Origin: Cordylochernes scorpioides | Taxonomy: Eukaryota; Arthropoda; Arachnida; Pseudoscorpiones; Chernetidae | Direction of reading: 5' to 3' | Length of the DNA: 64,000 nt | NCBI GenBank assembly: GCA_030710605.1 | Contig: CP092876.1 | Coordinates: forward strand, 90,582,890-90,646,889 | In this document: positions 13,520 to 64,000 of the stretch, piece after piece | Layout: every line of letters begins with the position of its first letter | How positions within the stretch are numbered: position 1 is the first letter of the stretch | Notes under the pieces: generated by a model | What the model was told of the DNA's origin: nothing | The model's input: the letters and a program-made list of their open reading frames with translations, nothing else | The model's database searches: none | Translations under genes and position numbers: made by a program

Positions 13520-14020
13520 CAATCATTAACATTATTTGTTGGTTCTGAAGTTGGATTACATCCTTTTCCACGCTGACGAGGGCCAGCAACACGAAAGGTG
13601 TACCTTGTTGAATTTTTAAAATTAGATTAAAGAAAGCAGTAGATATTTAGTCTATATTATCTAATAATGAAAATAGGGTGTTTTGAAAATAATATTTTGG
13701 TTGGAAGTTGTTTTGGAAAAATATAGCCATTCCTCTGGCAGCGAGACACTGAAACGTCGGGAACTAAATAAATCTTTGGTTGATGTTGCTATAAATATGA
13801 ACGATTAGTTTATATTTATTCCAATAGATGGAGTAACCTATCAGCTATTTCAGTTGCACGATACAGATACCTTTTTTATTTAACCGCCTGATCACAAATC
13901 AATTTCACACTTTTATACTAATCTAATTAAATTGTTTACAATTGGAGAAAGAACTGGTACAATCAAGTTGTGAGAATCTGTCTTCCTAATTTCTGGTAGA
14001 TATGGCTTTGAAAAACACGT
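13520..14020 (-). repeat. Conserved 3' flank of ILP gene 1
   Basis: Close relatives lie 3' of the A-chain exon in gene 2 (29200-29700) and gene 3 (52130-52610), and inverted at 17100-17400 and 39180-39550. It includes an approximately 210-bp unit running from CACGCTGACGAGGGCC to CACTGAAACGTCGGGAA. It therefore belongs to the duplicated block rather than to an independent insertion here. Confidence 0.65.
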
Positions 14021-14040
14021 GTTTTAATTACTTTAAAGAG

Positions 14041-14046
14041 TTTATT
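14041..14046 (-). terminator. Polyadenylation signal of ILP gene 1
   Basis: AATAAA on the minus strand 47 bases after the stop; the same hexamer is at the same place in genes 2 and 3. Confidence 0.55.
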
Positions 14047-14092
14047 AAGAGGCAATAAATAGTTAGACAAGAAGATATTGTTTATTTCAGCC

Positions 14093-14903
14093 CTATTCAG
14101 GCTTGCAGTAGTAGACTCTGATGTGGTAATAGCTGCAGGGAGCGCGACAGCATTCTTCAACAATGCCTCGTTTGATCCCCAACATCAAATTGTTTGCCCT
14201 CTTGTTGTCCAGGAACATTTCTGGGTCTGATGCACCGAGAGAGTCTGGAACACGCACAACAGGGTTATCTAGAATCGAATAAGAATACATAGTGAAATAG
14301 AACACCTAGCTGAAAAATATTCTAATATAAATATAGAATTTATAAATTCAATTGACATTATATCCATAGTGATATGGAACACCAAGCTGAAAATAAATTA
14401 ATAGAAATATAGGCGTTTGTATTAGAAATGGAAGCATTTAAAAACGAATGTTTTTTTTTTTTGCGAATAAAAAATACTTCTACAATCTTTGCTGCCTTGA
14501 AAAAATATTGGGAGTGCCTGGCTCATCATTGATAAATCCTCCCAGCGGTTTCGCCAATTTAATCTACCTGACCGCATCTCGGCGCTCTAATACTGTATTG
14601 AATCATTTTTATATATGCTACAATGGAGGGAAGGGTGAATCTTAAAAATAGTATTCAAGCAAACTATGGACATAAGCTTTTAGGGAAATAAAATTACATA
14701 TAAATATTTGCATCGAGAAATGCACTGGACTCTGTGTACTCACCTGGAAACAAGGGTTGAGCTCTTTTGGTCGGCTCGTAGACGCCATTTGGGCAAATCA
14801 ATGAAACAGCTTCAGCGTGATAATGGCCACATTGCTTTTTTCTGCGCTTCTGGAGTGAGATGGTGCCGCAGAGAGTGATGGTAAATACCAGAGTCACCAA
14901 TAC
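14093..14903 (-). CDS. Insulin-like peptide gene 1 (exons 2 and 3; exon 1 not found)
   Basis: Exon 2 is 14744-14903 (acceptor GTTGATAG, donor GTGAGT); exon 3 is 14093-14268 (acceptor GATTCTAG). The phase-1 join restores one frame: hydrophobic signal core, B chain (QCGHYHAEAVSLICPNGVY), C peptide with internal KR, then KR and an A chain GIVEECCRAPC...YYC. All six insulin cysteines are present. Two B-chain core leucines, the equivalents of LeuB6 and LeuB11, are Gln and His. Intron 2 is about 475 bases, far shorter than in genes 2 and 3. No exon 1 or promoter lies upstream; an unrelated repeat and an inverted ILP copy are there instead. It may be a decaying or specialised paralogue. Confidence 0.82.
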
Positions 14904-16500
14904 CTATCAACACACGAGGATCCAGACTTCAATAGTACCAGAAACCCAATGAATCATTCTTGGAGCAATACAAACCATGAAGAACCTTGTGAAGCCATAA
15001 ACAAAAGTATACAGTTAACATCACAATACGTTCCTCTTCTTTCTTAAAAAAAACTTTAATGGGCAATTACAACAATGGTATAACTCCGCCTTTGCCGGTC
15101 CCCACCCTAGATGAAAAAGGATGATGGGGGAACAGTAACAAGTTCGCTAAAAAACCTGGGCTCAGCTATCCCGGTTGATAGTAGTCTGTAAGGGCTCCTT
15201 ATCCAGGGATACAGAATGGGCAGCGTTTGTATATCATGTTAGGAGGGTTGCACATGGTGTCTCAAGTACACGTGGCCATGATAATCATGGTGTGTAGTTA
15301 GCATCTGCTTTTACTGTATATACATCATACTAGTAGGTCCACACATGTAGAAAACAATTTGACTTTTACTCTTCAAGTGTTTCAGAGGCTCGTTTGGTTT
15401 ATTTATTATCTAACTTCTATATAGATAACCAATTCTCTTACGGATTCTGAGCCTCTATGATTCTTCTGAAATTCTCTGAAATAGATATTATTTTAAATAG
15501 ATATCTGTAAAATTAATTTTTAATGTTAATTAAAATAGTACAAGGTGTGTTGCTGAAGATTAGTTTCTTTTCATTCAAATAAGAATTAATATCGTTTGAC
15601 TTTAAATCTGATCATTTCTGACTTGATAAATTTCATAGCAGCATACTTAATTCAAATAATAATATCATATTGCGTTAATTTCCATTATCTTTAACTTGAT
15701 AAATTTCATATCAACATAATTGATTTGTTTCTCCTGAATATAAATTATAATAATGCAACCGCTTTCTGGACATGATTTTCTTTTAACCTAAATATCAAAT
15801 GAACTATACTCTCTCTCTTCATCTATTTATCTTCATTTAATCTTATTTATTCACAAATATATATTTATTTTATATTTAATCTCATATATAACCTTATATT
15901 GATATATCTATTGTAATAAAGTAGTTTTAATATCAATTTCTCTCCCGCTGCTATAAAAAAATATCTGAAAAACATTAACTGATCAAGGCTTTATACTTTT
16001 GGTTAGATGAAGGAAGTTATCCCGAAGCTCCTCGCTATTTAAATGAAATTAATAGCGCCTTAAATATATCTTCATTTTAATATAATATATAAATGCGAAT
16101 TTTGAAACTGTTTTACATATGAATATATACTCTATAGGTGCGTTGGGGTTCTGTCTCCATTTCCACCTCCGGAATGAGAATCTATTATGCCCCACCCTCT
16201 TGATTCATCTCCACATAAAGAAAAACCTCCTAATTAAACTTATTGAAATTCTTTTAGCATCGCTAATTCGTTATAATCTGAAGTATTTACCAAAAAGGTA
16301 TTTGTCGAAATAAAAAAGTTTCGATATAAAGCTACATCAACCACTTATTTATATTTTGTTCCCGACGTATCAGTGACTCGCTGTCACTCTCCTCTAGGAA
16401 TTAATTCCATAGTTCTATGTGTAAAATAAACATTCATTCTTTAATACTTCAATTTTTATATATAGATGACACACTATCGGCTTATAATTAATTTTCCTAA
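14904..16500. other. Non-coding stretch: unknown repeat plus inverted ILP intron 2
   Basis: 14904-15040 matches sequence 5' of exon 2 in the other ILP genes. 15045-15240 is an unrelated GC-richer repeat that I do not recognise. From about 15250 to 16500 the sequence is the reverse complement of ILP intron 2 as seen at 30500-31700, including the CCATGATAATCATGG palindrome near 15275. No gene. Confidence 0.6.
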
Positions 16501-16901
16501 CTGCCTTGTCCGTATTGTTTGCGGAAGATATTTGCTCTATGCAAATATTTATATGTAATTCTATTGTCATAAAAGCTTATGTCCTTAGTTCGTTTAAATA
16601 CCATTTCTAAGAGTCCACTCTCCATTTTAGGATATACAAGCAGAATGATCTAATACCGTATTAAAACTCTGAGATGCAGTCAGGTAGATTAAATTGGCGA
16701 AACCGCTGCGAGGGTTTACCAATGATGAGCCAGGCACTTCTAATATTTTCTTTTCGCAGCAAATATTGTAGAAGTATATTTCATGTGCAAAAGAAACATT
16801 CGTGCTTCAATGCTTCCATTTATAATTAAACAGTCTATATTTATATTAATTTATTTTCAGCTTGGTGTTCCATTTCACTATGTATTCAAAATCGATTCTA
16901 G

Positions 16902-17073
16902 ATAACACTCTTGTGTGTGTTCCAGACTCTCTCGCCGCATCAGACCCAGAAATGTTCCTGAACAACAAGAGGCTAACAATGTGATAGCGCTCAAGCGGGG
17001 CATTGTTGAATAATGCTGTCACACCAGCTGCAGCTATAACCACATCAGAGTCTACTACTGCAAGCCTGACTAA
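16902..17073 (+). pseudogene. Inverted insulin-like peptide pseudogene, A-chain exon
   Basis: Plus-strand copy of ILP exon 3, preceded by the same ATCGATTCTAG acceptor. It is 172 instead of 176 bases, with a net 4-base loss in the C-peptide part that shifts frame. The A chain KRGIVE is followed by TAA in place of the GAA of the intact genes, then CCHTSC...YYC. A stop in the mature chain, the frameshift and the lack of a B exon make it dead. A polyadenylation hexamer lies at 17123-17128. Confidence 0.85.
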
Positions 17074-17399
17074 GGCTGAAATAAACACAATATTTTCTTG
17101 TCTCACTAGTTATTGCCTTCTTAATAAACCCTTTAAGGTAATTAAAGCACGTGTTCTTCAAAGCCATATCTACCAGAAATTATGAAGACCAATTCTCACA
17201 ACTTGATTGTACCATTTCTTTTTCCAAGTGTAAAACAATTAAATTAGATTAGTAAAAAAGTGTGGAATTGTTATAGGATCAGGTGGTTAAATAAAAAATG
17301 GAACTCAGATCGTTCAAATGTAATTACTGATGAGTTGCGCCATCTATTGGAATAAATATGAACTAATCGTTCATATTTATATTTACATCAACTAATTGT

Positions 17400-18395
17400 T
17401 ATATAGCTCCGACGTCTCAGTGTCTTGGCTGGGCTGAGGTGTGTGATCTTGCATTGTCAGTGTGAAGGACTCCTTTGTGTTGAATTCTTGGTCTGCTTTG
17501 CTTGATATTTCAGATACTGCTGGTAGACATTTTGTTGTATACCAGTCTCTATTAGTTGTCTTTCGGTCTTCTAACTTCACAATATCAGTGAAACCACTTT
17601 TTCTAAAAAAGCGCGACCATTTGTTTTCCAGCACTTCGAGATGTGCGGACTTTCTTAGGAGATGATTTAGAAGAGCACCAAAGAGTAGATTTTATTTCTG
17701 ATTCAAAATTGTAAATCCAAGATTCCTCTTCAATACTAATATTAAAAACACCCTTTGGTTGGCCTTTATCAATTTTTTTCAAAATGAAATTGCACAATTT
17801 AACGCGACCAAGTTTTTGGTGTTCAGTCAAGCTGTGAGGTACCCATTTATAATAAGTTTCCTGTATTTTAAATGATCATTAATGATGGTGTTGATTGCTG
17901 CCGATCTAATGCCAACATTTTTCTCTAACTGCTGATACGTAATTTTTTTATATTTTCAAGTAAAAATCTTACCAGCTCGATATTTTCTAGGGTCCCTGCT
18001 GTTGGTGGTCGACCTGAACAAGGTTCATATACAAGGTTGGTTTTTCGTTAAAACAATTAAGAACTGTTTTAATAGTAGAAGCTTTATCTCCTAAAGCTTT
18101 TATTAATCTTTCATTGGATCTTTAGAGGTTAAATTATTTTAATAATCATAAAATGTAATGGCGGATAAATTTTCTCTAGTCAACTCCATTGTATCTGATG
18201 CCATTTTTAGAAATTACAGCTGTCGCTGTAAACAAAGTCGCGCCCTCTATAAGTCATTGTTGTTACTAGTTATGAAAATATATTTTTTTAGAAACAAATG
18301 CATGTATATTCTGATGGTTTAATTTATTTTTAATATTTCAAATAGTTATTATTGATTGCAGAATCCTTTGGAGTGCCCTTGTATTTGCAGCATTT
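17400..18395 (-). pseudogene. Decayed mariner element with transposase remnants
   Basis: Minus-strand fragments match the mariner pattern: EHQKLGRVKLCNFILKKID, then a degraded EESWIYNF where an intact transposase has a D, and KSSPKKVRTSRSAGKQMVA. The right end resembles the CTTTGGAGTGACCCTT inverted repeat of the copies at 27.8-29.0 kb and 39.7-41.0 kb. It lies just past the inverted ILP pseudogene, the same position mariner holds beside genes 2 and 3. Confidence 0.72.
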
Positions 18396-18416
18396 CCTAC
18401 TCACCAGTATCCATAT

Positions 18417-18752: not shown

Positions 18753-18754
18753 AC

Positions 18755-19585: not shown

Positions 19586-19597
19586 TTCATTATTTCC

Positions 19598-20719: not shown

Positions 20720-20793
20720 GTCAATGGACCTTTGTCAGCAACTAAAAAAAACTTTTAAATAAAAAAGCCTCCTGGTGACCTCCACGAGGAAGA

Positions 20794-20811: not shown

Positions 20812-20813
20812 GT

Positions 20814-20886
20814 TGTCGCGGAGGAGCCTTTGGGATGTTGCATTGGATTAGCGGAACCAACTGATAATCGGCGAAAAATCTCTTGG
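20814..20886 (-). repeat. Partial Gypsy-2 LTR at the inversion joint
   Basis: 73 bases of the same LTR as 18819-18935. Its right end butts directly onto plus-strand pol codons at 20887. Confidence 0.7.
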
Positions 20887-22228: not shown

Positions 22229-22237
22229 TAGAAACTT

Positions 22238-23575: not shown

Positions 23576-23787
23576 AGGGAACCAAGGAGACCAACAACAC
23601 TGGGTGACTATATGCCAAATATCGACGAAATTGAGTCTAGGATTCCTCCAGCTCGCCAACCTAGGAGTGCCTCACCCTATCTGGGGAGAGGGATAAGTAC
23701 AGGACGCAGGCCATTAAGATCACCTGCTAGGGTAAACAGCCGCTCATTCACAAGAGAAAGGGAGGAAAACTAGAACTGGCGACCTGC

Positions 23788-29780: not shown

Positions 29781-32700
29781 CTATTCAGGCTTGCAGTAGT
29801 AGACTCTGATGTGGTTATAGCTGCAGGGAGAGCGACAGCATTCTTCAACAATGCCTCGTTTGATCGCCGACATCATATTGTTCGCTCTCTTGTTGTCCAG
29901 GAACATTTCAGGGTCTGATGCACCGAGAGAGTCTGGAACACGCACAACAGGGTTTTCTAGAATCGAATTAGAATACATAGTGAAATGCATAACTTAGCTG
30001 AAAATATTCTAATATAAATAAAGAATTTATATAAATTTAATTTCATTTTATCGTTAAACATCTCTACAAATAAATTTACTGGCAATGTGTTTATATTAGA
30101 TATCATCAAAAAAAAAAAAACTCCAACTGGCCGAAGTGTCAATTATTTATATAAATATGAATGCCGGCCAGGCAGCCTCTATCTTTCTTTTAAATATTAT
30201 ATCTATAGTCAGGTCTGTCGGTATAATATTTGATGCTATTTCAAAGTAACCTTCGGCAGTGAATATATTTTTACCAAAAATAAATATAGAATGTTTTATA
30301 AGAATAGAAAAATATATAGCATGAAGGTTTATTTTACACATAATTCAAATTTTTACTATCTTTGCTGTGATGGGAAAATATTGGTGAGCCCTTACAATAG
30401 TTACGCCAATTTTATCTACTAGACCTTAGAGCTTTAATACTGTATTGGATCATTCTGCTTATATATTCTATACTGCAGGGTGGAATCTTAGAATGGGATT
30501 CAAGTAAACATTAGACATAAGTTTTACGGCAGTAGAATTTATATAAATATTTGCATCAAACAATGTTCTTCCGCAAACAATAGGGATAAGGCCAGTTAAG
30601 CAAAATTAATTATAAGCCGATAACGGGTCATCTACTTATAAAAAAATTGAAGTATTAAAGAATGAATGTTTATTTTACAATGGAAATAATTCCTAGAGGA
30701 GAGTGACAGCGAGTCACTGAAACGATGGGAACAAAATATAAATAAGTGGTTGATGTAGCTTTATATCAAAACTTTGTATTTTCGATAAATACCTTTTTGG
30801 TAAATACCTCAGCTGATAACGAAGTAGCGATGCTAAAAGAATTTCAATAAGTTTAATTAGGACGTTTTTCTTTATGTGGAGATGAATCAATTCAATCTCA
30901 TTCCGGAGGTGGAAATGTAGACAGAACCCCAACGCACATATAGAATATATATTCATATGTAGAATAGATTCAAAATTAGCGCATTTATATTAAATTAAAA
31001 ATGAGGAGATATTTAATGCGCTATTAATTTCATTCAAATAGCAATTAGTCTTCGGGATACCTTCCTACTTCTACTTAAAGTACAAAGCTAGATCAGATTT
31101 TTTTAGGTATTAGAGAAAGCGATTGCGATATTGGAACTACTTTATTACATATTTATTAATATAAGATTTTATATGAAGTTAAATATAAAATAAATGTATA
31201 TATATGAATAAATAAGATTTATAAGGATGAATAGATAAAGAGAGAGTAGAGTTCATTTGATATTTTTTCAAAAACAAACTCATTTCCAGAAAGATGTTGC
31301 ATTATTATAATTTATATCCAGGAGATTTAAATCAAGTATGTAGATATGAAATTTTATCGAATCAGAGATGATAAAATTTAACGTCAAACGATATCATTTC
31401 TTATTTGAATGAAAAGAACTCAACTCAAGTAATCTTTGGTATTATTTTGATCTATATTTAAATTAATTAAATATCTATTTCAGAGAATTTCAAAAAGAAT
31501 CATAGAACTCAGAATTCGCGAGAGAATTGGTTATCTATATAGATGTCAGATAATAAATAAACCAAACGAGGCTCTGGAACCCTCGTAGGTGCGGAATTCG
31601 AATTGCTTTCTAAAAGTGTGAACATACGGTGTACTTACAGTAAAAGCAGACGCTAATTACACACCATGATTATCATGGCCACGTTTATTTGGTATATATA
31701 CCACCACCATGAAATATATATTAAAATATCGTATAAATATTTATATAATATCAAAAAGGCATATCCTGACCTGGGTCACATGAACTTATAGATTTTAGAG
31801 CGCCACCTAGTGGAACAGATATTAAATAAACGCTTTTTTAGCAGGTTCCCTGAAATTTTGTTAACCTATTTTCTTGATAATTTAAAATAAGCCAACCACG
31901 AATCCGTTTCGGGCAGTTTGGCCCTCGTTAGCGTGGCTTATATAAAGTAGAAATGTTCGCTCTAAAAGACAAAACCTTGATGCAGAGCCAAATGGTCAAT
32001 TTCTTCCAGGACTCGGTGTACTGACCTGGAAAAAGGGCTCTTTTGGTCGGCTCGTAGACGCCATTTGGGCAAACTATTGAAACAGCTTCAGCGAGATAAT
32101 GGCCACATAGATTCTGTCTGCGCTTCTGGAGGGAGATGGCGCCGCAGAGAGTGATGGTCAATACCAGAATCACCAACACCTGTCAACACACGAAGATCCA
32201 GACTTAAATAGCACCAGACACCCAAAGACTCATTCTTGAAGCAATCAAACCATGAAGAACCCTAAACGTTTTTTTTTTCTCTTTTAAAATATCATAAAGG
32301 CATTTTTGGATATTTTTTATAAAAAAACATCTGAACGGTTTCTTATGGGATTAGAAGAATTCCCAGTCATATATCATGGAGGGATTCGAAAGTGCATTTA
32401 AAAAAAATAGATGATTCTTTATATGTTTTGAATTTAATGAACCTATGCTACACATTAATACAATGAATGAACATGTAGTTAAAAATAAACATAGAACACT
32501 CTTTTCTAGTGAACAATTCTACAAGTACGTATTTTTCAGCACTTACACAAAACCCTATACTGCGATAAATCAATGAAAAAACAACTTTTTATCTCACAAG
32601 ATAAACATAGACCTTTTTATTCCAATGAACAATAATTTTCTGCTTCTACAAAATAAACCTAAATCATGATAATTTAATGAATTTTTAAACAGAGCTTACA

Positions 32701-33772
32701 AAATTGATATTTACAATTATTGATATCACTTTGGCTTTTACACAAGTAAACTTTACCAGGCTAAAGACATAAATAAAGCTACTCAGCTTACAAAAAATGA
32801 CACTATTCCAATAAGCATAATGCTAGGTTTGCACTCACAATATATATCTACAACACGGTAGTGTAAGAAAGTATACAGCTTACAAAATAAACATAAACTG
32901 CCTACTCTATTACAATGAACACAATACTATTTATCGCTTACACAGTAAACCTAGTACACGCTAATACAATGAATAAAACATAGAGCTTACAAATATAACA
33001 TAGTCTGGCCCATCTATTCCAATGAACCCAATACTACTTTATCGCTCACGCGCAATAAATTTATACCACGTTACTACCTTGAATGAAACAACTCATCTTA
33101 TAAAAAAAAGAACGGTCAATCTATTCCAATGAACAATTCTACTTTCGCATTTACACAATAAACTTTACCATGCTAATAAAATGAATAAAACAACTTAGAT
33201 TTCAAAATGAGCATATAATGACCAATATAATCCAATGAACAATTCTACTTTAGCACTAACACAAAAAATTTCAAGAGAGATCAATAAACTATAAAAATGA
33301 AGAATAAAGAAATACTATCTTCCGAACTGACATGAATTCACTCGGCTCCCATGTTGATTGGAAGTTGAACTGTTATCTCACTTACAAGGCCATCAATGGC
33401 TTATATTAAATCCTAAGCAACTACACATTGAGATATTTAAAACCAATTTGTATATTTGGCACCTTCGTTAGATGCTACACAATAATGGCAATGCAAGAAA
33501 TATAACTTAAAGGTGAATAGCCTCCTTCTGATAAAAGAAAAAGAGTTAAGTTGCTGATTGGAAGCCACAAACTAATATTAAAACAGAATTTACAAATGAT
33601 AATAATGATAAGAATATATACATTTTTGAGATTATTATTAACTGAGAATAAAAAATTACCACAATAAACAGTAGTTTCAAATTTAAACACAAATTAAAAT
33701 ATAACACAATGAAGATAATTGACTTACCCTGAAACAAGCCATGTCTACTGACACGCTAGAAGGCGGCGCCAT
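29781..33772 (-). CDS. Insulin-like peptide gene 2 (complete, three exons)
   Basis: Exon 1: 33728-33742 from the near ATG, or 33728-33772 from an in-frame upstream ATG; donor GTAAGT. Exon 2: 32026-32179, acceptor TTGACAG, donor GTCAGT. Exon 3: 29781-29956, acceptor GATTCTAG. Joined, it gives 114 codons (124 from the upstream ATG): signal peptide starting MACFRVLVILVL, B chain NLCGHYLAEAVSIVCPNGVY, KR, C peptide, KR, and A chain GIVEECCRSPC...YYC. All six cysteines are present, and insulin B-chain spacing is canonical. Intron 2 is phase 1 within the C peptide, as in insulin genes. The product should be a secreted two-chain hormone. The A-chain loop between the last two cysteines is one residue longer than usual. 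Confidence 0.9.
31650..31945. other. Conserved inverted motifs in ILP intron 2
   Basis: The 15-base palindrome CCATGATTATCATGG (about 31664-31678) and a hairpin pairing ATAAGCC...GTGGCTTAT around GGGC/GCCC (about 31888-31943) are repeated in gene 3 (about 54575 and 54798-54851). A palindrome copy is also at about 15275 and a variant near 35095. The hairpin is about 80 bases downstream of the exon 2 donor. Confidence 0.5.
32455..33270. repeat. AT-rich minisatellite in intron 1 of ILP gene 2
   Basis: About eight imperfect copies of a 105-108-base unit containing CTATTCCAATGAACAA, CTTACACAATAAAC and AATACAATGAATAAAAC. The matching array in gene 3 (55360-56490) has more units. Confidence 0.8.
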
Positions 33773-33773
33773 C

Positions 33774-33780
33774 TTATATA
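33774..33780 (-). promoter_or_regulatory. TATA box of ILP gene 2
   Basis: TATATAA on minus; TCAGT, the arthropod initiator, lies with its A at 33749, 31 bases downstream, then the ATG at 33742. The same layout is found in genes 3 and 4. About 110 bases upstream are also conserved among the three. Confidence 0.6.
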
Positions 33781-33869
33781 CCAGTTCTTACCATCGATTA
33801 CAGACGACCAGAACAGCTGTACATCAGATTAATGTCTTAGAAGCTTGTCAAAACATGTGAGAGAGATAA

Positions 33870-38233: not shown

Positions 38234-38254
38234 AATTTTAGCGATATCTAAAAG

Positions 38255-45673: not shown

Positions 45674-45674
45674 A

Positions 45675-48575: not shown

Positions 48576-48695
48576 GAGACTGAAGACGCGCAAGGCCTAA
48601 AACGTGAGACTGAAGAAGCGCAAGACCTGAAACGTCAGACTGAAGAAGCGCAAGACCTGAAACGTCAGACTGAAGAAGCACAAGGCCTAAAACGT
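48576..48695 (+). repeat. Four 30-bp tandem repeats in the Copia-2 leader
   Basis: Four copies of a 30-base unit (GAGACTGAAGAAGCGCAAG...AAACGT) between LTR and gag. One frame stays open through all four, giving ETEEAQDLKR-like decapeptides before a TAA at 48699. Confidence 0.85.
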
Positions 48696-48759
48696 GAGTA
48701 ACCAAATTTCCTTTGATTACTTGGACCATCCTTTTTCTACTTACCAAATATTTTGTAAA

Positions 48760-52698: not shown

Positions 52699-55600
52699 CT
52701 ATTCAGGCTTGCAGTAGTAGACCCTGATGTGGTTATAGCTACAGGGAGAGCGACAGCATTCTTCAACAATGCCTCGTTTGATCGTCGACATTATATTGTT
52801 CGCTCTCTTGTTGTCCAGGAACATTTCTGGCTCTGATGCGGCGAGAGGGTCTGGAACACGCACAAATGGGTTATCTAGAATCGAATTAGAATACATAGTG
52901 AAATGGATAACCTAGCTGAAAATATTCTAATATAAATATAGAATTTATAAATTCAATTTCTTTTTTTGTTAAATTTCTCTACAAATAAATTCACTGGCAA
53001 TGTGTTTATATTAAATATCATCAAATATTATATCTACAGACCTTTCTTTCAAATATTATATCTATAGACAGGTCTGTGGGTCTAATATTTAATGCAATTT
53101 CAAAGAAACCTATTGGCAGTAAATATATTTTTACCAAAAATAAATATAGAATGTTATATAAGAATGGAAGGATATAAAGCATGAAGGTTTCTTTTACACA
53201 TAATTCAAACTTTTACTATCTTTGCTGATATGAGAAAATATAGTGAACCCTCACAGGTGTTAAGTCAATTTTATCTACTAGACCGCTCCTTAGAGCTTTA
53301 ATGCTGTATTGGATCATTCTGCTTATATATTCTATAATGCGGGGTGGTATTTTAGAATGGGATTCAAGTAAACAATAGACATAAGGTTTAGGGCAGTAGA
53401 ATTTTATATAAATATTTGCATCAAACAATGTTCTTCCGCAAACAATAGGGACAAGGCCAGTTAGGTAAATTTAATTATAAGCCGATAATGGGTCATTTAT
53501 TTATAAAACATTGAAGTATTAAAGAATGAATGTTTCTTTTACAATGGAATAAATTCCTAGAGGAGAGTAACAGCGAGTCACTGAAACGTCGGGAACAAAA
53601 TATAAATAAGTGGTTGATGTAGCTTTATATCAAAACTTTGTATTTTCGACAAATACCTTTTTGGTAAATACTTGAGCTGATAACGAATTAGCGATGCTAA
53701 AATAATTTCAATAAATTTAATTTGAACGTTTTTACTTTATGTGGAGATGAATCAAGAGGGTGGGGCATAATAGATTCTCATTCCGGAAATGGAGATAGAA
53801 CCCCAAAATAAACATATAGAGTATATATTCATATGTAGAATAGATTCAAAATTAGCGCATTTATATTTAAATAAAAATGAGGAGATATTTAATGCGCTAT
53901 TAATTTCATTCGTATAGCCAGAAACTTTCGGCATACCTCCCTACATCTACTCAAAAGTACAAAGCTATTGATTAGATAAAGCCTTTCAGATTTTTTAGGT
54001 ATTAGAGAGAGGGATTGAGATTTTGGAACTACTCTATTACATATTTATCAATATAAGGATTTATATGAGGTTAAATATAAAATAAATGTATAAACATTAA
54101 TAAATGATATTTATAAGGATAAATAGATAAAGAGAGAGTAGAGTTCATTTGATATTTTTTTAAAAAGAAACCCATCTCCAGAAAGATGTTACATTATTAT
54201 AATTTATATCCAGGAGATTCAAATAAAGTATGTTGTTATGAAATTTATAAAGTCAGAGATGATATAATTTAACGTCAAACGATATCGTTTCTTATTTGAA
54301 TGAAAAGAAACTCAACTCAAGTAATTTTTTGGTATTATTTTAATTTTTATTTAAATTTATTTAAAATATATATTTAATTTAAATATCTATTTCAGAGAAT
54401 TTCAAAAGAATCATAGAGCTCAGAATTCGCGACAGAATTGGTTATCTATATAGATGTCAGATAATAAATAAACCAACGAGGCTCTGGAACATTTGTAAGT
54501 GAGAAAGTCGAATTGCTTTCTAAAGGTATGGACATATGGTGTACTTACAGTAAAAGCAGACGCTAACTACACACCATGATTATCATGGCCACGTTTACTT
54601 GGTATATATACCACCACCATGGAATATATATTAAAATATGGTATAAATATTTATATTAAGATCAAAAAGACATATCCTGACCTGGGTCAAATGAACTTAT
54701 AGATTTTAGAGCGCTATCTAGTGGATCAGATATCAACTAAACGCTTATTTAGCAGGTTCCCTGAAATTTTGTTACCCTATTTTCTTGCTAATTCACAATA
54801 AGCCAACCACGAATCCGTTTCGGGCTGTTTGGCCCTCGTTAACGTGGCTTATATAAAGTAGAATTCTCTCTAAAAGACAAAACCTTGTTGCAGAGCCAAA
54901 TGGTCAATTTCTTCCAGGACTCGGTGTACTGACCTGGAAAAAGGGCTCTTTTGGTCGGCTCGTAGACGCCATTTGGGCAAACCAATGAAACAGCTTCAGC
55001 GAGATAATGGCCACATAGATTTTGTCTGCGCTTCTGGAGGGAGATGGCGCCGCAGAGAGTGATGGTAAATACCAGAATCACCAACACCTGACAACACACG
55101 AAGATCCAGACATCAATAGTAATAGACACCCAAATACTCATACTTGAAGAAATCGAAAATATGAAGAACACTAAACCTTTTTTATCTTTTAAATCTCATA
55201 TAGGCATTTTGGATAATTTTTATAAAGAAACATCTGAAGTGTTTCTTATGGGATTAGAAAAACTCCTAGTCATATATCATTGAGGGATTCAAAAGAATAA
55301 TAAAAAAAATAGATGATTCTTTATATATTTTAAATTTAATGAACATATGCTACACATTAATACAATGAATGAACTTTTTAGTTAATAATAAACATAGAAC
55401 ACTCTTTTCTAGTGAACAATTCTACAAGCATGTATTTTTCAGCACTTACACAAAAACCCTATACTGCGATAAATCCATGAAAGAACAACTTTTTGGCTTA
55501 CAAGATAAACATAGACCTTTCTATTCCAATGAACAATAAATTTCTGCTTCTACAAAATAAATCTAAATCATGATAAATCAATGAATTTGAAACGTAGCTT

Positions 55601-58600
55601 ACAAAATTGATATTTACAATTAATGATATCACTTTGGCTTTTACACAAGTAAACTATACCAGGCTAAAGACATAAATAAAGATACTCAGCTTACAAAAGA
55701 GTGACACTATTCCAATAAACATAATGCTAGGTTTGCACTCCCACTATAAATCTACAACACGGTAGTGTAAGAAATGATACAGCTTACAAAATAAACATCG
55801 ACTGGCTACTCTCTTTACCAATGAACACAATACTATTTTTCGCTCACACAGTAAGCCTAGTACACGCTAATACAATGAATAAAACATATAGCTTATAGAA
55901 TGAACATAGACTGGCCAATCTATTCCAATGAAAACAATACTACTTTATCGCTCACGTAATGAACAATACCACGCTACTACCATGAGTAAAACAACTTAGC
56001 GCAAAAAATAAACAAAGAATGGCCAATCTATTCCAATGAACAATTCTACATTCGCATTTACACAATGAACCTATACCATGCTAATACAACAAATAAAACA
56101 ACTTAGCTTACAATATGAACAAGGAACAGCCATCTATTCCAATGAACAATACTAATTTAGCGCTTACATAATGAACTTATACCATTCTAATACAATGAAT
56201 AAAACAACTTAGCTTACAAAATAAACAAAGAACGGCCATCTATTTTAATGAACAATACTACCTAAGCGCTTACACAATAAATTTTTACCATGTTACTACC
56301 ATGAATAAACAACTAGGCTTAAAAAAGAAAAAAGAACTGCCATCTATTCTAATGAACAATAGTACTTTGCGCTTACACAATGAATTTATACCGAGCTAAT
56401 ACAATGAATAAAACAAATTATCTTACCCAAATAAATATAGAACGACCAATATACTCCAATGATCAATTCTACTCTAGCACTAACACAATAAATTTCAAGA
56501 GAGTTCAATCAACTATTAAAATGAAGAACAAAGAATTTCTATCTTCCACACTAACATGAATTCACCCGGCTACCAGGTTGATTAGAAGTTGCACTGTTAT
56601 CTCATTTACATGACCATCAATAGTTGATATTAATTCCTAATCAACTACACATTGGATATATAAAACAAATTGGTATATTTAGTACCTTCATGAGATGCTA
56701 AACTGTAATATACCTTATAATAATATTATAATATACTCTGTTTAATTAATTTATTTTGATTGTTTGGATTTGGCAGCACTGTAATTATTGTTGTTGTTAT
56801 GAATCTATTTAAAAAGTGTACGTTTGACATTAAAAATATATATAATAAAAATTAGTTTATTAATTTAATAAAGCATATTTATTTATTTAATCGTAGAGAG
56901 AGAGAGAGAGGAACATAACAAAAATGGCGCAGCCGGCAGGATCGATCATCCTGCATTTTAAGAATAAAAAGGTAATTGGCTATAGCTTTAACCCTGATGC
57001 TAACGTTCTATCTATCCCTGAAGAATTTCAAATGCCCATTTATCACGAGCTCGTGTTTAAATGTGGAAAGAATCTAACTTCTTACTATTTAGAAAAGGAT
57101 TCTAATAGATTTGTTAAAGTTCCATCAAAAATAATTGAAATATACAAAAATCGATCATTTGAAGATTTACAAATTTGCGTAATGGATGAGGAGGAATTAG
57201 ATGCAAAATCTCTATTAACAGAAGACACTTTTAGCAAATTGATAACTACTGTAGCAGAACAACAAAAACTAGTTAATTATTTAGTTCAAAATTTAAGTTT
57301 AAACCAGCATGAATATACACCAAGACATGTCGAAATGAAAGCACCTGATTTCTCCGGTAATAACTTAGATCCAGCCACTTGGATAACCCTATATGAAAAT
57401 ATCTGTGCAAATAATGGTTGGGTAAAAGATCAATCCAAAATATATGGTATGAGAAACTACCTAGGGGGAACTGCACAATTGTGGTTCGATAGCAGACTTG
57501 CTGATGAATGCAACTTTAGCTGGGAAACATGGAAAGAAGATTTTGTATCCTCATTTGGGGATAACCCCATAGACAAATATGATAGGGCGTTCAAGTGGAG
57601 ATATCGAGGCGGCTCTCTGATCGATTACTTCCACCAAAAACAAAGGAAAATGCGATTAGGGATACCCGGCTTAAGTGAAAAGCTATTGATAATTGGAGTG
57701 ATTCATGGGCTACCCCCCAGATATGCAGAATCAGTTGTCCACTGTGAAAATCGAAAACAAAGAGACTCTTCTTCAGCTGCTGAAAAATATCCGTCCCAGT
57801 TTGGAGAAAAAACCTTTTGAACCCAAGCCCTACCAGACAACTGGCAACACAGTGGTCAAGAAGCCAGCCTATTTTGCCAAACTTGATCAAATTGAGGAGG
57901 CATCACAGACAATGAGCAATCAAAATAATTCTGTGTCTTCTCTTCAAAAAAACTAAATTTAGAGGGTTGTTCGATCCCGATGACAAAATCGATCCTATTT
58001 TTGTCTTGCAAAAGTCCCGATTCTATGTAGCCCGCTATTATAAATGGTGTAAAACTTGTTGCTTTCTTGGATCCAGGTTCTTCTATCAATCTAATGAGAA
58101 GAGACCTTTTGGCCAAATATAAATGGAAAAGTTATCCATCAGAGACCACGATAACAACGATTGACGAATGTCATGTCCGAGCTACTGAGAATATTGAGGT
58201 GGAACTTCAGGTTGACGATCAACAGAAAATGATGACGGCGACAATATTGAGGAAGATGCCATTCGAACTGTTAATAGGAAAGCCCACCATGAGGGATCTC
58301 CGCATTCAATGGAACTTTGGGACTGATGAGATTAAGTGCTTGTCTTTGCGGTCAAATGAAGTTATTTTTACCAGTGATGACCTGATCACTATATTCCCCA
58401 AGCTTTGCAATGTCTCCAAAAAGGAATTACCATTGCACGAGATCGACTTTCTATTGAAGCCCAATAATAACATCGTGGCGTGTAAACCTTACCCTATGTC
58501 AGATCACAAGAGAGCATGGACGGCTGGAAAAATCAAGGAGATGCTAGATGGGGATATTATTACTCCTTCAACTTCTGAGTACGCATCACCTTGTATTCTA

Positions 58601-61600
58601 GTTCCTAAAACGGACTCGTCCTACCGAGTCTGTATTGACTATCGACAGTTGAATAAAGAGACTTTTTTGGACCCTTTTCCTTTTCCTAGAATCGACTCAA
58701 TCATTAATAAATTTGGGGGTTGTCGATACTTTACAAAAATTGATTTGAAGGATGGGTTTTGGCAAGTCGGTCTAACTAAAGCCACGAGAAAGTTCTCTGC
58801 TTTTGTAACACCTGATGGACTTTATGAGTTTAAGAGACTACTGTTCGGGTGGAAAAATTCACCTCCTAGATTTCAAAGGGTTATGAGCGAGATGTTGGCT
58901 GATTTATTGGAACTCAGAGTGGTTGTTTACATTGACGACATTTGTTGTGGCGCCCCAACCCTTGAAGAATGTGCTTCCCTCACCTACAAAGTTCTCAATA
59001 GACTGAATCAATATAATATGACAGTGAACTTGGGCAAGTGCCAAATTTGTGTATCTGAGGTGGAACTTTTAGGTAGAATTATCAACGGTAACTCGAAGCA
59101 AATGAAGGAGGAAGTAATCGAAAAGGCTAAACTCATGAAACGCCCATATAATCTTAAGTCACTACAATGTTTTACTGGATTTACAGGTCATTTTCGGGCC
59201 TATATACCAAACTATGCCACGATAGTTCGACCGTTGGACAACCTGAAGAAAAAAAATTCTAGTTTTATGTGGTCTGATAAATGTGAAGAGGCCTATTTAA
59301 AACTCATTGATATCATCACGTCAAAACCAATACTGGCAATCCCAGATGAGTCATTGCCTTATGAAATGTCAACAGATGCTTCATATTATGGAACAGGGGC
59401 TATTCTATACCAGAGAGACGTGAATAAAAGGAAATCACTTCAACTCAGAGTGATTAGTTATTATTCATATACATTTTCCAAGGCTGAACAAAATTATTCC
59501 ATCACCGAAAAAGAATGGCTTGCTGTGTTGAAAGCTGTCAAACACTTCAGATGGTATTTGGAAAGCAAGTCTTTTGCTGTCCACACGGATCATCGCGCAT
59601 TGACACAGCTACTTTCCTGTGGCCATCTACGGGATCGACTTGCGAGGTGGCAGCTGTTTCTGAGCTCTTTCGAAATGAGAGTGAACCACCGTTCTGGCAG
59701 GGACCTCAGCGATGCAGACGCGCTGTCTAGATTGGCTGTAGAAACACCAAATTCCAGCGATCAAACCGTACTGTTTGTTAAACATCAGAGTATTCCTTTA
59801 AAATTAGAAGATCACGGGAAATATTTTGTCCCTCACGAACATCGAACTTCAATTTTATCTATGTACCATGATGATCCCTTATCAGGAGGACATTCGGGGT
59901 TTTGGAGGACATATTATAAAATGAAGCAACGCTTTGTTTGGCCTGGTATGAAGAATGACATAAGGAAATATGTATCTTCTTGTCCTATCTGTCAAAGGGT
60001 CAAGTTCAAGTATAAGAGCCGTCCTTCAAAGATGAGTTTGCCCCATCAATCAAGGGTACCTTTCCATACTGTACATGTAGATTTCGCCGAGGCTCCTTCT
60101 AACATCAAGGATAAGAATTCAACATTTTTACTACTTATTGACGAGGCAACTAGGGTAGTTCAAGCAAAGGCAATGAAACAACATGGCCGTGCTCTAATAA
60201 AATATTTCAACGAACATGAGGATCTGAAATCAGTGAGAACTATAGTCTCCGATCAAGGGAGATCATTTGTGTATGGAAAATTCCCTAGGTGGGCAACCTC
60301 CAAAGACATCCGATTAATAACTACTTCTCCTTATCACCCTGCAGGAAATGGTTTAGCGGAACGAGCTATACGAGATATAAAGACCTTTCTCTCGTGCTAT
60401 CCTCACTTCAAGGGTGGATGGAAAAATGCCTTAGAAGCGGCAGTACGCTACCATAATAGATCCTACAACTCCTACCTGGGTTGCTCCCCTTTATTCAAAC
60501 TTACAAAAACTTCCCCTGTTTTACCTGCCGATAAAGAGCTTAATCTTCACTGTCCCCTTTATGAAACAGAAAAAAGTCAAATTGAGCAAAACCTCTACCG
60601 ACAAAGAACAAAGTTTTATTTTAACAGTCGTAAGAAGGCCCTGCCACCAGAGATGAATATCGACGATTATATTTTGGTAAGACATCAGAAGGTTGGAAAG
60701 GAATGGAAGCTATCTGGTCCGCATCGAGTGACAAGGGTAACCAAAATGGATGGCCACCCCAAATATGTTGAATATGAGTCTGATGATAAAACTCCAAGAA
60801 CGGCTCACATCTCCAATATCCAACCTTATCTGCATCGACATCCCAGGAGGGATGAAGTCGCTTGAAGTCGGGGGAGTTGTAATATACCTTATAATAATAT
60901 TATAATATACTCTGTTTAATTAATTTATTTTGATCGTTTGGATTTGGCAGCACTGTAATTATTGTTGTTGTTATGAATATATTTAAAAAGTGTACGTTTG
61001 ACATTAAAAATATATATAAAAAAATTAGTTTATTAATTTAATAAAGCATATTTATTTATTTAATCGAAGAGAGAGAGAGGAACATTACATAAACAATAAT
61101 GGCAACGCGAGAAATATAAATCAAAGGTGAATAGCCACCTTCTTATAAAAGAAAAAGAATTGAGTTGCTGATTGGAAGCCACAAACTACCAATAAAACAG
61201 AAATTACAAATAATAATAATGATAAGAATATATATATGGTAATTTAAACAAACAACCCCATATTGTATTTACTTTATAACAAGATTTTAATGTTGTATAG
61301 TAGAAACACATCTGTAAATGGTTATATGCATGATTGACATGTGTCATTACATCATCATATGTAATGTAATTTGTACAAACTGAGGATAATAAATAAAACT
61401 CTGTAATAGATTAAGAGTTGAGCTAGAGAGATAGAAGTCAAACACGTCTCTATTCGAGATAGATGGAAGCCACAAAGCAACATCTAAAGATAGATTGAAA
61501 GCTGTCAGGACGGCACCAGTAGAATGTCACCTGACGACCCCCTCTCATATCTGGTGACATGCAAAACCGACTTTCTCAGAAACTGTACATAAAGCCCCGT

Positions 61601-62183
61601 CCTAGCTAAAAATACAGTTAGTTCACCATCTGCAGGAGCTCCACGTCGGTTGTACCCTAGGTCCATCTCATCCATCATGTAGACCAGTAAGAAATCTTCT
61701 ATCTCCCCATCTTTCGCTCCTAGCTCAACTTTTATCTGTTCACGGAACTTTCTTAGTGCAACTGTGTCTTCCTTTTTTGTGTGGACATTCCCAAGCTTTC
61801 CACTCTGCCTCGACCACGACTGCCTGTACTTTGTGAGAACTTTTAAAGGTCTTCCAAGGTGCAGAGAGGTACTAGAAAACTCCCCATCCTGACTGTTTCT
61901 CTCGGTCAACACAGTATAGCGAGAGTTGACAGGGACTCACACCACAGTTTAAGTCGATTGGATACCTCATCACATTTCTAGTCGACAGGATTCTCTACAA
62001 GAGGCTACAGTAACTCAACTCATTCCATATACATTTTTGAGATTATAATTAACTGAGAATAAAAAACTACCACAATAAACAGTAGTTTCAAATTCAAACA
62101 CAAATTACAATGTAAAACAATGGAGAGAAGTGACTTACTCTGAAACAAGCCATGTCTACTGACACGCTAGAAGGCTCCGCCAT
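52699..62183 (-). CDS. Insulin-like peptide gene 3 (complete, Gypsy-4 in intron 1)
   Basis: Exon 1: 62139-62153 (near ATG) or 62139-62183 (upstream ATG); donor GTAAGT. Exon 2: 54934-55087. Exon 3: 52699-52874. The splice sites are the same as in gene 2, and the joined frame is open. Chains: signal MACFRVLVILVF, B chain NLCGHYLAEAVSLVCPNGVY, A chain GIVEECCRSPC...YYC, identical to gene 2 in the A chain and differing by one residue (I to L) in the B chain. The C peptide differs at several sites. Intron 1 is about 7 kb because of a minisatellite, Gypsy-4 and a second insertion carrying an unknown ORF. Expected product: secreted two-chain hormone. Confidence 0.9.
55360..56490. repeat. AT-rich minisatellite in intron 1 of ILP gene 3
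   Basis: About ten to eleven units of 105-108 bases, same family as 32455-33270. Units carry CTATTCCAATGAACAA and AATACAATGAATAAAAC. Confidence 0.82.
56704..56920 (+). repeat. 5' LTR of Gypsy-4
   Basis: 217 bp, ends in a GA-repeat and AACATAACA. Confidence 0.92.
56924..57820 (+). pseudogene. Gypsy-4 gag
   Basis: 298 codons: N-terminal domain (ILHFKNKKVIGYSF), a hinge, then a capsid-like gag domain (APDFSGNNLDPATWITLYEN, WKEDFVSSFGDNPIDKYDRA, YFHQKQRKMRLG). No zinc knuckle is seen. The ATG overlaps the primer-binding sequence TGGCGCAGCCGGC, which begins 5 bases after the LTR. A frameshift near 57740 passes the reading to 57705-57956. Confidence 0.75.
57705..57956 (+). pseudogene. Gypsy-4 gag tail
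   Basis: Alternative frame picking up MQNQLSTVKIENKETLLQLL and continuing to a stop at 57954. The section between this and the protease contains further stops. Confidence 0.5.
58067..60865 (+). CDS. Gypsy-4 pol: protease end, RT, RNase H, integrase
   Basis: 932 open codons. It opens at the protease loop FLDPGSSINLM, where DTG or DSG is expected and a Pro stands in between; the codons before lie in the same frame only back to about 58030. RT: RVCIDYRQLNKETFLDPFPF, TKIDLKDGFWQVGL, VVYIDDICCG (residues about 286-295). RNase H STDASYYGTGAI (about 437). Integrase HHCC (GGHSGFW...CPICQ), then D in HVDFAEAPS (about 670), D in VSDQGRSF (about 728) and E in GLAERAIRD (about 763). Ends with GPHRVTRVTK. 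Best preserved transposon protein in the window. Confidence 0.88.
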   Translation: MDPGSSINLMRRDLLAKYKWKSYPSETTITTIDECHVRATENIEVELQVDDQQKMMTATILRKMPFELLIGKPTMRDLRIQWNFGTDEIKCLSLRSNEVIFTSDDLITIFPKLCNVSKKELPLHEIDFLLKPNNNIVACKPYPMSDHKRAWTAGKIKEMLDGDIITPSTSEYASPCILVPKTDSSYRVCIDYRQLNKETFLDPFPFPRIDSIINKFGGCRYFTKIDLKDGFWQVGLTKATRKFSAFVTPDGLYEFKRLLFGWKNSPPRFQRVMSEMLADLLELRVVVYIDDICCGAPTLEECASLTYKVLNRLNQYNMTVNLGKCQICVSEVELLGRIINGNSKQMKEEVIEKAKLMKRPYNLKSLQCFTGFTGHFRAYIPNYATIVRPLDNLKKKNSSFMWSDKCEEAYLKLIDIITSKPILAIPDESLPYEMSTDASYYGTGAILYQRDVNKRKSLQLRVISYYSYTFSKAEQNYSITEKEWLAVLKAVKHFRWYLESKSFAVHTDHRALTQLLSCGHLRDRLARWQLFLSSFEMRVNHRSGRDLSDADALSRLAVETPNSSDQTVLFVKHQSIPLKLEDHGKYFVPHEHRTSILSMYHDDPLSGGHSGFWRTYYKMKQRFVWPGMKNDIRKYVSSCPICQRVKFKYKSRPSKMSLPHQSRVPFHTVHVDFAEAPSNIKDKNSTFLLLIDEATRVVQAKAMKQHGRALIKYFNEHEDLKSVRTIVSDQGRSFVYGKFPRWATSKDIRLITTSPYHPAGNGLAERAIRDIKTFLSCYPHFKGGWKNALEAAVRYHNRSYNSYLGCSPLFKLTKTSPVLPADKELNLHCPLYETEKSQIEQNLYRQRTKFYFNSRKKALPPEMNIDDYILVRHQKVGKEWKLSGPHRVTRVTKMDGHPKYVEYESDDKTPRTAHISNIQPYLHRHPRRDEVA
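60878..61089 (+). repeat. 3' LTR of Gypsy-4
   Basis: 212 bp partner; the polypurine GTCGGGGGAG precedes it. Confidence 0.92.
61240..62030. other. Second insertion in ILP gene 3 intron 1
   Basis: Gene 2 reads GAATATATACATTTTTGAG here, while gene 3 has about 790 extra bases between the two halves. It has a TTTATAAC and an AATAAA on plus and the ORF at 61505-61912 on minus. No family recognised. A short ATAT lies on both sides. Confidence 0.55.
61505..61912 (-). CDS. Hypothetical ORF inside the intron insertion
   Basis: 135 codons with normal-looking amino-acid use (KLGNVHTKKEDTVALRKF, KVELGAKDGEIEDFLLVYMM, YNRRGAPADGELTVF). GC-richer than its surroundings. It might be a captured or retroposed host exon or part of an unknown element; no motif allows a call. 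Confidence 0.35.
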   Translation of the reverse strand: MLTERNSQDGEFSSTSLHLGRPLKVLTKYRQSWSRQSGKLGNVHTKKEDTVALRKFREQIKVELGAKDGEIEDFLLVYMMDEMDLGYNRRGAPADGELTVFLARTGLYVQFLRKSVLHVTRYERGSSGDILLVPS

Positions 62184-62184
62184 C

Positions 62185-62191
62185 TTATATA
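62185..62191 (-). promoter_or_regulatory. TATA box of ILP gene 3
   Basis: TATATAA on minus with TCAGT 31 bases downstream (A at 62160), then ATG at 62153. The conserved upstream region is cut at 62303 by a mariner. Confidence 0.6.
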
Positions 62192-62302
62192 CTAGTTCTT
62201 TGCATCGATTCCAGACGACCAGAACAGCTGTACATCAGATTAATGTCTTAGAGGCTTGTCAAAACATGTAAGGGAGATAAATCTTTGGAAAATAAATTAT
62301 AT

Positions 62303-62940
62303 ACGAGGAGCATCCAATAAATAAGTTTCCTTATTTTTTAACAAATAAACCACATTATTCACAATTATGCAGTTATTTTATTTTCATTATACAACTCATA
62401 GACTACTTCTCTAAATAATCACCATTTCTGTTCAAACATTTTTGGTACCGTTGTAGCAATTTTTAGATACCACTGTTGTACCAAGCCGTGTCCTGTCTTA
62501 GTAGCCAGTGGTTCGCCTCCGCCTGCACTTCGTCATCATTCGCAAAGTGCTTGCCTCCAAGGTGCCACTTGAGTGCTGGATAAAGATGGAAGTCGCTTGG
62601 GGCAAGTTCCGGAGAATAAGGTGGATGTGTGAAAATTTCCCATTTGAAGTTTTCGATAGCCATAACTTTGCCTGCAGAGATTGTGACCTTCGCCTTATTT
62701 GGTGCACTTTCCTCAGGCGTCTTCCACACCATGCTTTGTCGTTTTGTTTCTGGAGTTGAATGATGCACCCAGCTTTCATCTCCAGTGACAATACGGGAAA
62801 ACAGTTGATCTCCATCTCTTTGATGCATTTCCAGGAAAACTCGGGCTGCCTCCATCCGTTGTTGCTTGTGATTTTCCAAGAGTAATCTTGCGACCCATCT
62901 TGCGCAGACTTTTCGAAAATCCAAAACATCTTTAATAGAT
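62303..62940 (-). mobile_element. Truncated mariner upstream of ILP gene 3
   Basis: Left end ACGAGGAGCATCCAATAAAT is a mariner-type inverted repeat; no right end is seen. The transposase ORF inside is listed separately. It inserted about 112 bases upstream of the gene 3 TATA box. Confidence 0.75.
62463..62924 (-). pseudogene. Mariner transposase, internally deleted
   Basis: Carries the first catalytic D in RIVTGDESWVHH and the last region HPPYSPELAPSDFHLY with the third D. The middle, holding the second D (in a HDNARPH motif in the family), is missing between KVMA and IENFKWEIF. The N-terminal HTH is also cut. It could not cut DNA. Confidence 0.82.
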
Positions 62941-63560
62941 TATCCTGTTTTTCAAGACTACAGAGTCGAAAAAAAAATTAATAGTAAGAGATCCAGGTAT
63001 TTTTATTTCCAATGAGGAAATCAATATTAAATTCAATACCTTTTGTAGATATATTTTAAATTATATATATATAATTTATTTTATTCTCTTTGTACATGTT
63101 GACAGAAACACTCTTTGTACATAATTATTTTTATCGTTTTTTTCTCTCTTTCTCATTGTTAACATCATATGACTATTCCATTCACAGCCTAAAATCATTG
63201 TATATATAAATATAGACAAATGTATTGGCATACATGTATGACATGCATTTACATACATAAAATATTTTAAAAATATATTTTCAATTATATGAATATCTTC
63301 ATGTATATGAATATTATTATTCTCTTAATTCTTGTTTCGGGTAATAGCCTGTTAATGGACGTCATACGAGTAGTCTGATGGCGTGCCATTTTTTATACCA
63401 AATAAATAAAAAATGTCGTCGCCGTTAGGTTTTACTCCTTTTTTGAAATGATATCTGGCAATTCTTCCTCTAGTAAATTCACTTCTATTGTAGAAATCAA
63501 AAAGAAACGAGGATTCTAACAGTTATAATATATTTATAATTTTTATTTTCCAAAGCTTCA
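62941..63560. other. Intergenic region between divergent ILP genes 3 and 4
   Basis: AT-rich, no gene. 63340-63560 is the reverse-complement match of 33870-34120, the upstream region of gene 2, and so probably regulatory. Confidence 0.5.
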
Positions 63561-63646
63561 TCCCCCTCACATGTTTTGACAAACTTCTAAGACATTAATT
63601 TGATGTGCAGCTGTTCTGGTCGTCTGGAATCGATGCCAAGAACTGG

Positions 63647-63654
63647 TATATAAA
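63647..63654 (+). promoter_or_regulatory. TATA box of ILP gene 4
   Basis: TATATAAA with TCAGT downstream (A at 63678, again 31 bases), then ATG at 63685. Confidence 0.6.
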
Positions 63655-64000
63655 ATGGCCCAGCCTTCTGGCGTGTCAGTAGACATGGCTTGTTTCAGGG
63701 TAAGTCTCTTCTCTTCATCAAGTTACATGTTCAATTATTTTCAAATTGGAAACTTTTGTTTATTGTGGTAGTTTTTTATTCTCTGTTGATTATAGCTTCA
63801 AAACTTTCATATATTCTTATCATTATGATTATTTGTAATTTCTGGTTTAATGTTAGTTCGTGAATTTCAATCAAGTCAATTCTTTCAACAGAAGGTGGCT
63901 ATACATCTTTAAGTTATATTTCTGGCATTACCATAAATGTGTGACATCTCATGGAGGTGCTAAATATACGAATTTGTTCTGAATATCTCAATGCGTAGTT
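63655..64000 (+). CDS. Insulin-like peptide gene 4 (first exon, runs off the window)
   Basis: Exon 1 is 63655-63699 from the upstream ATG or 63685-63699 from the near ATG, coding M-A-C-F-R, donor GGTAAGT at 63700. The promoter and exon match genes 2 and 3 almost base for base, and the following intron matches theirs to the end of the window. The B- and A-chain exons must lie beyond 64000. Orientation is opposite to genes 1 to 3. Whether the remainder is intact cannot be seen. Confidence 0.7.

Follow-up and report, generated by a model that had tools for sequence, protein, structure and literature searches.

Why should a pseudoscorpion carry the same insulin-like gene in many copies? Insulin signalling is usually tuned by regulation and relies on few ligand genes. 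The stretch of DNA that raises the question, here called the window, comprises 64,000 nucleotides of Cordylochernes scorpioides (C14:90582890-90646889). An earlier interpretation from the letters alone (the sequence-only reading) had described it as a local cluster of insulin-like peptide genes built by tandem and inverted duplication. Searching all six frames for motifs and exons supported this structure, but the proposed scale was far too small: the window cluster appears to be a small slice of a megabase-scale array of predicted insulin-like prohormone genes. With a probability of roughly two thirds, we interpret this array as divergent pairs of insulin-like genes in which the coding body is homogenised, the mature peptide is under purifying selection and the copies raise the output of essentially one hormone.

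Insulin-like genes in the window

The window contains two complete three-exon insulin-like genes, at 29.8-33.7 kb (gene 2) and 52.7-62.2 kb (gene 3), as well as a truncated copy (gene 1), a dead inverted A-chain exon and exon 1 of a further gene (gene 4). Gene 2 lies on the minus strand and consists of exon 1 (33728..33742; five codons), exon 2 (32026..32179; signal peptide, B chain) and exon 3 (29781..29956; C peptide, A chain and stop). The exons join in phase 0 between exons 1 and 2 and in phase 1 between exons 2 and 3, giving a spliced product of 114 residues. Gene 3, also on the minus strand, has its exons at 62139..62153, 54934..55087 and 52699..52874, with an intron 1 of 7051 bp that contains a Ty3-type element. 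The region 62154..63684 separates the first exon of gene 3 from the divergent first exon of gene 4 on the plus strand (63685..63699). The sequence-only reading had noticed this fourth first exon; the gene itself turned out to be complete, with exons 2 and 3 to the right of the window at C14:90648033 and 90654953.

All three A-chain exons that had been proposed are open, and they belong to genes 1, 2 and 3. The adjoining B-chain exons, proposed to read LCGHYLAEAV, were all located as well, but the gene 1 copy reads QCG instead of LCG. Gene 1, which had been placed at 14.0-15.0 kb, retains exon 2 (signal-peptide core and B chain; 14744..14903, minus strand, 160 bp, 90.9% identical by blastn to exon 2 of gene 2 over 143 bp) and exon 3 (C peptide and A chain; 14093..14268, minus strand). 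We consider it a truncated member, because it has no first exon, carries QCG for LCG and has lost most of intron 1, of which ~80 bp remain. The dead inverted copy was also recovered between genes 1 and 2. Its A-chain exon (16902-17074, plus strand) has a stop and a frameshift, and inverted self-alignments show that it belongs to a broken gene copy running from intron 2 through exon 3 into the 3' flank (15263..17425, plus strand).

Predicted prohormone and splicing

A search against an insulin-family profile, which had been suggested as a check, was passed by all six array models tried (Pfam Insulin, PF00049; 37.9-48.7 bits, cut-off 23). The spliced gene 2 protein scored 47.5 bits (E 3.7e-12), and the five further models gave E values of 3.7e-9 to 1.6e-12, one of them without exon 1. 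Scores were 37.9 bits for the product of gene 1 exons 2 and 3, 47.2 bits for the gene 3 model and 48.1 bits for the spliced gene 4 protein. The best match of the gene 2 protein in PDB was 6b3q_a, an insulin chain of 110 residues (E 5.4e-6).

By inspection, the prohormone consists of a signal peptide ending in CGA (judged by eye), a short pro-piece ending in RR, the B chain, KR, the C peptide, KR and the A chain; the C peptide carries one further KR, and two KR in all precede the A chain. The B chain starts with QNLCGHY and has its two cysteines 11 residues apart. The A chain has 24 residues with the pattern CC-x3-C-x9-C (spacers 0, 3, 9), so that the six insulin-family cysteines are present, two in the B chain and four in the A chain (CC-x3-C and the last Cys). 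The hallmarks to which the sequence-only reading had appealed, namely B-C-A order, six cysteines, dibasic cleavage sites and a phase-1 intron in the C peptide, were thus all found in the spliced protein. Gene 2 reads through the phase-1 border, which is open in 11 of the 14 three-exon sets found in 260 kb (the window plus 196 kb of right flank, without N). In all 14 sets both acceptors are AG and the donors are GT, although exon ends had been located by GT motifs.

A fused copy on another contig (L001; C12:33.637 Mb) provides supporting, indirect evidence of splicing, as it resembles a reverse-transcribed insertion. Its exons 2 and 3 are joined, intron 2 is gone, and the copy ends ~23 nt past AATAAA. 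Flanked on both sides by ACCTCATGTAA, an 11-bp direct repeat, the copy was afterwards interrupted by another insertion, which has a 9-bp repeat. Its exon 3 lacks the first 24 nt, through use of an inner acceptor or deletion between TTCCAG repeats.

A homologue search with the gene 2 product returned only three C. scorpioides protein models, with 86-98% identity over 37-49% of the length. All three are hypothetical proteins with misjoined array exons: one fuses the start of exon 3 to a B-chain exon, and two continue beyond an array exon into unrelated sequence. Because the public models join the array exons wrongly, the insulin family is easy to miss.

Size and layout of the array

Extending the analysis to the right, another suggested check, revealed 17 exon-3 (A-chain), 16 exon-2 and 14 exon-1 copies across the 260 kb. 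Eleven of the 14 three-exon sets are intact. Of the others, one has a frameshift in exon 3, one has lost its start codon, and one has an extra base inserted into a T run where exon 2 ends. Besides these sets there are three more units, namely the dead exon and two truncated copies of a single type.

We also searched the genome (2.62 Gb in 24 contigs) with the gene 2 protein. With 150 of the 280 candidates scored, at least 94 exon-3 matches, one of them the fused C12 copy, and at least 56 exon-2 matches were found; this listing recovers 16 of the 17 exon-3 but 9 of the 16 exon-2 copies known in the 260 kb. At least 68 exon-3 matches lie at C14 90.36-91.49 Mb, that is, in 1.13 Mb from a scaffold gap to the contig end. 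The other exon-3 matches listed comprise eight at 87.95-88.05, six at 87.28-87.35 and two at 88.69-88.80 Mb on C14, nine at 87.98-88.09 Mb on C8, and one on C12. In the main array, the earliest exon detected follows the 100-N scaffold gap at C14:90359577-90359676 by ~1.7 kb, and the last gene stops ~1 kb short of the end of C14, at which no telomere repeat was found. An inverted symmetry of the whole C14 array, judged by eye from coordinates, fitted the spacing in part, but chance fits are easy and the strands disagree at several places, and we make no claim for it.

Divergent pairs with two promoter classes

The repeat unit of the array is a divergent pair. Six pairs occur in the 260 kb, with first exons 1.4-10.2 kb apart. 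An alignment of 14 upstream regions revealed ~110 bp in common, including TATATAAG (TATATAAA in two copies) and a TCAGT motif, presumably initiator-like, whose A lies 7 nt before the ATG; the ATG itself is kept in 13 of the 14 copies. In gene 2 this conserved proximal promoter spans approximately 33743..33860 (minus strand), with TATATAAG at 33780-33773 and the A of TCAGT 7 nt upstream of the ATG. As the TATA box, TCAGT and ATG are so close together (e.g. at 33780-33743), the predicted 5' leader is only 7 nt long.

Two promoter classes were distinguished by eye, L (n = 8) and R (n = 6), and each of the six pairs combines one L with one R promoter. The L member lies on the minus strand in five pairs, while one pair is flipped as a whole.

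Probable homogenisation of the coding body

Class separation was calculated as the mean between-class distance divided by the mean within-class distance of the 14 genes, and its significance was assessed on ranked distances by permuting the class labels through all 3003 possible splits. The ratio was 1.76 in the promoter (p 0.0027), 2.32 over the initial 250 bp of intron 1 (p 0.0003) and 1.26 at the end of intron 1 (p 0.13); exon 2, intron 2, exon 3 and the 3' flank gave ratios of 0.98-1.11. Permutation gave p values of 0.12 for exon 2, 0.22 for the end of intron 2, 0.53 for exon 3 and 0.12 for the 3' flank. Leaving out two genes of a near-duplicate unit (genes 15 and 16) gave the same picture. 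Class identity is apparently kept in the promoter and 5' intron 1 but is faint in the 3' flank and throughout most of the coding body. That so little of it shows downstream, including the end of intron 2 and the 3' flank, is compatible with exchange between the arms by gene conversion or crossing-over.

Mean divergence was low in the coding parts: 2.6% in exon 2 (14 sets) and 1-2% in the A-chain part of exon 3. The 3' flank diverges by 9%, and four intron segments and the promoter by 11-23%.

Constraint on the mature peptide

The A chain is identical in all 11 intact copies of the 260 kb, and the B chain occurs in three near-identical forms. Over these copies, the ratio of nonsynonymous to synonymous variation (pN/pS) was 0.59 in the signal peptide, 0.15 in the B chain, 0.41 in the C peptide and 0.00 in the A chain (0.29 overall). 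Codon variants in the A and B chains were nonsynonymous less often than at random (p 6.7e-6) and less often than those in the C peptide (p 0.014), which is mildly constrained too (p 0.034). At 21 further loci, mostly top-scoring matches and hence a biased sample, of which 18 lie outside the 260 kb and three inside, the A chain was the same in 20 and differed by a single change in one.

How many copies are real

Comparison of 3-kb loci showed four that are ~99% alike and six others that are ~99% alike, and one C8 locus is 100% identical to one C14 locus over 3180 bp. Near-identity of this kind suggests that blocks were copied very recently, that haplotypes were left uncollapsed, or both; uncollapsed haplotypes have probably inflated the copy number. 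Self-comparison of the 260 kb (138 alignments) revealed one duplicated stretch above 98.1% identity; all other alignments of at least 1.5 kb were at or below that value. This 16-kb stretch pairs window positions 1-16081 with 151483-167328 (C14:90734372-90750217) in two alignment pieces at 99.2-99.3%. Since it is the only duplicated stretch that close, the 260 kb holds at least 16 distinct A-chain-exon units, dead ones counted. The true genome total lies somewhere between 16 and more than 90. The 16-kb stretch includes the truncated gene 1, and its copy ~150 kb away lacks one A-chain cysteine.

Discussion

Each complete gene has a five-codon exon 1 behind a TATA/initiator-like promoter, followed by an exon for signal peptide and B chain and an exon for C peptide and A chain, and should yield a two-chain peptide released at dibasic sites. 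The units probably multiplied via tandem, inverted and block duplication, while ectopic gene conversion (or unequal crossing-over) between the arms would homogenise the coding body and purifying selection would preserve the mature peptide. With so many copies, the animal would release more of what is essentially a single circulating hormone, whose receptor would be a kinase of the insulin-receptor type. On the sequence evidence, amplified dosage of one hormone is the best reading of the function of the array.

Several observations weigh against this interpretation. Because the L and R classes were defined on the promoter alignment, testing them on the promoter is circular, and testing them on 5' intron 1 is partly so. 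Furthermore, the start of intron 2 retains some class signal (p 0.025; 0.019 without genes 15 and 16). The selection tests count codon variants, which are not independent events, with half counts rounded. Only 11 of the 14 three-exon sets are unbroken, and both truncated copies as well as the lone exon are dead or doubtful. Some copies reach 99-100% identity, even across contigs C8 and C14, and assembly duplication is likely to lie behind part of the count. Finally, the fused C12 copy keeps the 3' tail of intron 1 and lacks poly(A), and a deletion between TTCCAG repeats could also have joined its exons.

Doubts about the assembly can be carried further, to the view that most of the copy number represents the two haplotypes of a modest cluster, assembled apart onto C14 (in several blocks) and C8. 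The identical C8 and C14 loci and the sets of four and six loci that are ~99% alike would agree with this, as would an array that begins just behind a scaffold gap and runs to the contig end without a visible telomere repeat. The gene order of the C8 block also resembles that of the blocks at both ends of the C14 array, as judged by eye from coordinates. However, sets of four to six near-identical loci are more than two haplotypes can supply, and in the gap-free 260 kb just one stretch (99.2-99.3%) exceeds 98.1% identity. We consider an artefact on this scale rather unlikely.

The remaining explanations accept the copies and differ on what they do, and each seems to us less probable still. Two promoter classes could give different expression, and a second B-chain type, ending in AQPLFP, occurs in truncated copies and in one public gene model, as might be expected if the array made a family of different (subfunctionalised) hormones; yet the intact copies share a single A chain and three near-identical B chains, and the A chain recurs at 20 of the 21 other loci, so that this is improbable. 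Decay of a family that is carried along by transposon-driven block duplication, with no dosage function, would suit the transposon-rich region and the broken copies, but sits poorly with constrained A and B chains and with 11 intact frames out of 14, and is given similarly long odds. An exocrine bulk product, such as a venom component or a nutrient secretion to the brood-sac embryos, is no better a candidate than these two, although high copy number with an almost fixed product would fit bulk secretion, and insulins are known in cone-snail venoms.

If amplification of a single hormone is correct, a megabase-scale array encoding essentially one insulin would make the evolution of hormone dosage directly testable, and would raise the question how an animal copes when the copy number of its main growth signal varies. 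The L/R pair, with class-specific promoters and shared coding bodies, would also offer a natural test of gene conversion between inverted repeats. A bolder claim, to which we give somewhat less than an even chance, is that this is the largest known insulin array of any animal: dozens of near-identical divergent-pair genes kept uniform via gene conversion, in which the dose of a single insulin with an A chain one residue longer is raised by copy number, as for ribosomal RNA or histone genes.

Comparison with known systems

Silkmoth chorion arrays consist of tandem divergent gene pairs with short shared promoters, which encode eggshell proteins and undergo gene conversion of their coding parts. 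Divergent pairs are common to both systems; in the pseudoscorpion array the first exons within a pair are 1.4-10 kb apart. Caenorhabditis elegans has about 40 insulin-like genes. In Bombyx mori, the available part of the published description gives 38 bombyxin genes summed over families, ~50% similar between families and mostly intronless (PMC3745042). As in the C. scorpioides array, these are insulin-type prohormone genes in many copies, with clusters that include pairs and triplets and with some presumed pseudogenes; in contrast, the array has at least 94 A-chain-exon matches, three exons and one nearly fixed A chain. If even half of the matches are real, the array would match or exceed the Bombyx and C. 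elegans sets in size, yet encode a single product where those encode many. As a chelicerate parallel to the bombyxin clusters it would be rare, and it would have taken the opposite course, towards uniformity rather than diversity.

Among chelicerates, four insulin-like peptides (ILPs) have been reported from Ixodes (PMC6536706, PMC7357564) and local duplications of aIGF genes from spiders (PMC7357564); the available parts of these sources mention no large array in ticks or spiders. They define aIGF by a C-terminal extension after the A chain (PMC7357564), and the tick ILP5/DILP7 subgroup has extra residues between A-chain Cys 2 and Cys 3 (PMC6536706). No C-terminal extension was found in the array, where the stop follows three residues past the last Cys in the same exon; no search was made for an alternative 3' exon. 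The array A chain differs from that of the tick ILP5/DILP7 subgroup (PMC6536706) in having three residues between Cys 2 and Cys 3 and none extra. We rejected both an aIGF and a relaxin/DILP7-type (tick ILP5 group) identity, and the array peptide looks like neither because it has no C-terminal extension in the same exon and no extra Cys 2-3 residues. No description of such an array was found among the titles and abstract openings listed for open PMC papers on insulin and neuropeptides in pseudoscorpions, the C. scorpioides genome and insulin-like peptide families. Its size, divergent L/R unit, uniform product and A-chain spacer appear unusual relative to known insulin clusters.

The usual spacer between the last two A-chain cysteines of insulins is eight residues. 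It is nine residues in the array versus eight in a second insulin type of the same genome (L002 and L003). This type occurs as two very similar copies on opposite strands, 87 kb apart (C14:8794237 and 8880953). Like the array genes it matches PF00049 (47.7 bits for the L002 frame), but it has B and A chain in one open frame with a short C peptide. A homologue search with the L002 frame yielded three candidates, of which none passed.

Transposons in the window

The transposon-rich setting that the sequence-only reading had described was borne out by a Pfam scan, which covered 10 of the 30 long frames, and by the Ty3-type element in intron 1 of gene 3. Retrotransposon frames lie at 2457-4259, 7667-8701 and 37553-38254 on the minus strand, and at 20868-23773, 24308-25228, 48691-50451 and 58031-60865 on the plus strand. 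Integrase and RNase H domains occur among them; one frame has a Ty3 peptidase, another a copia-type gag, and there are further reverse transcriptase frames. Two frames of 509 and 307 residues (44153-45682, minus strand, and 56897-57820, plus strand) had no Pfam match. Between the first exons of genes 3 and 4, a frame at 62463-62977 (minus strand) is, judging by eye, presumably that of a mariner-like transposase.

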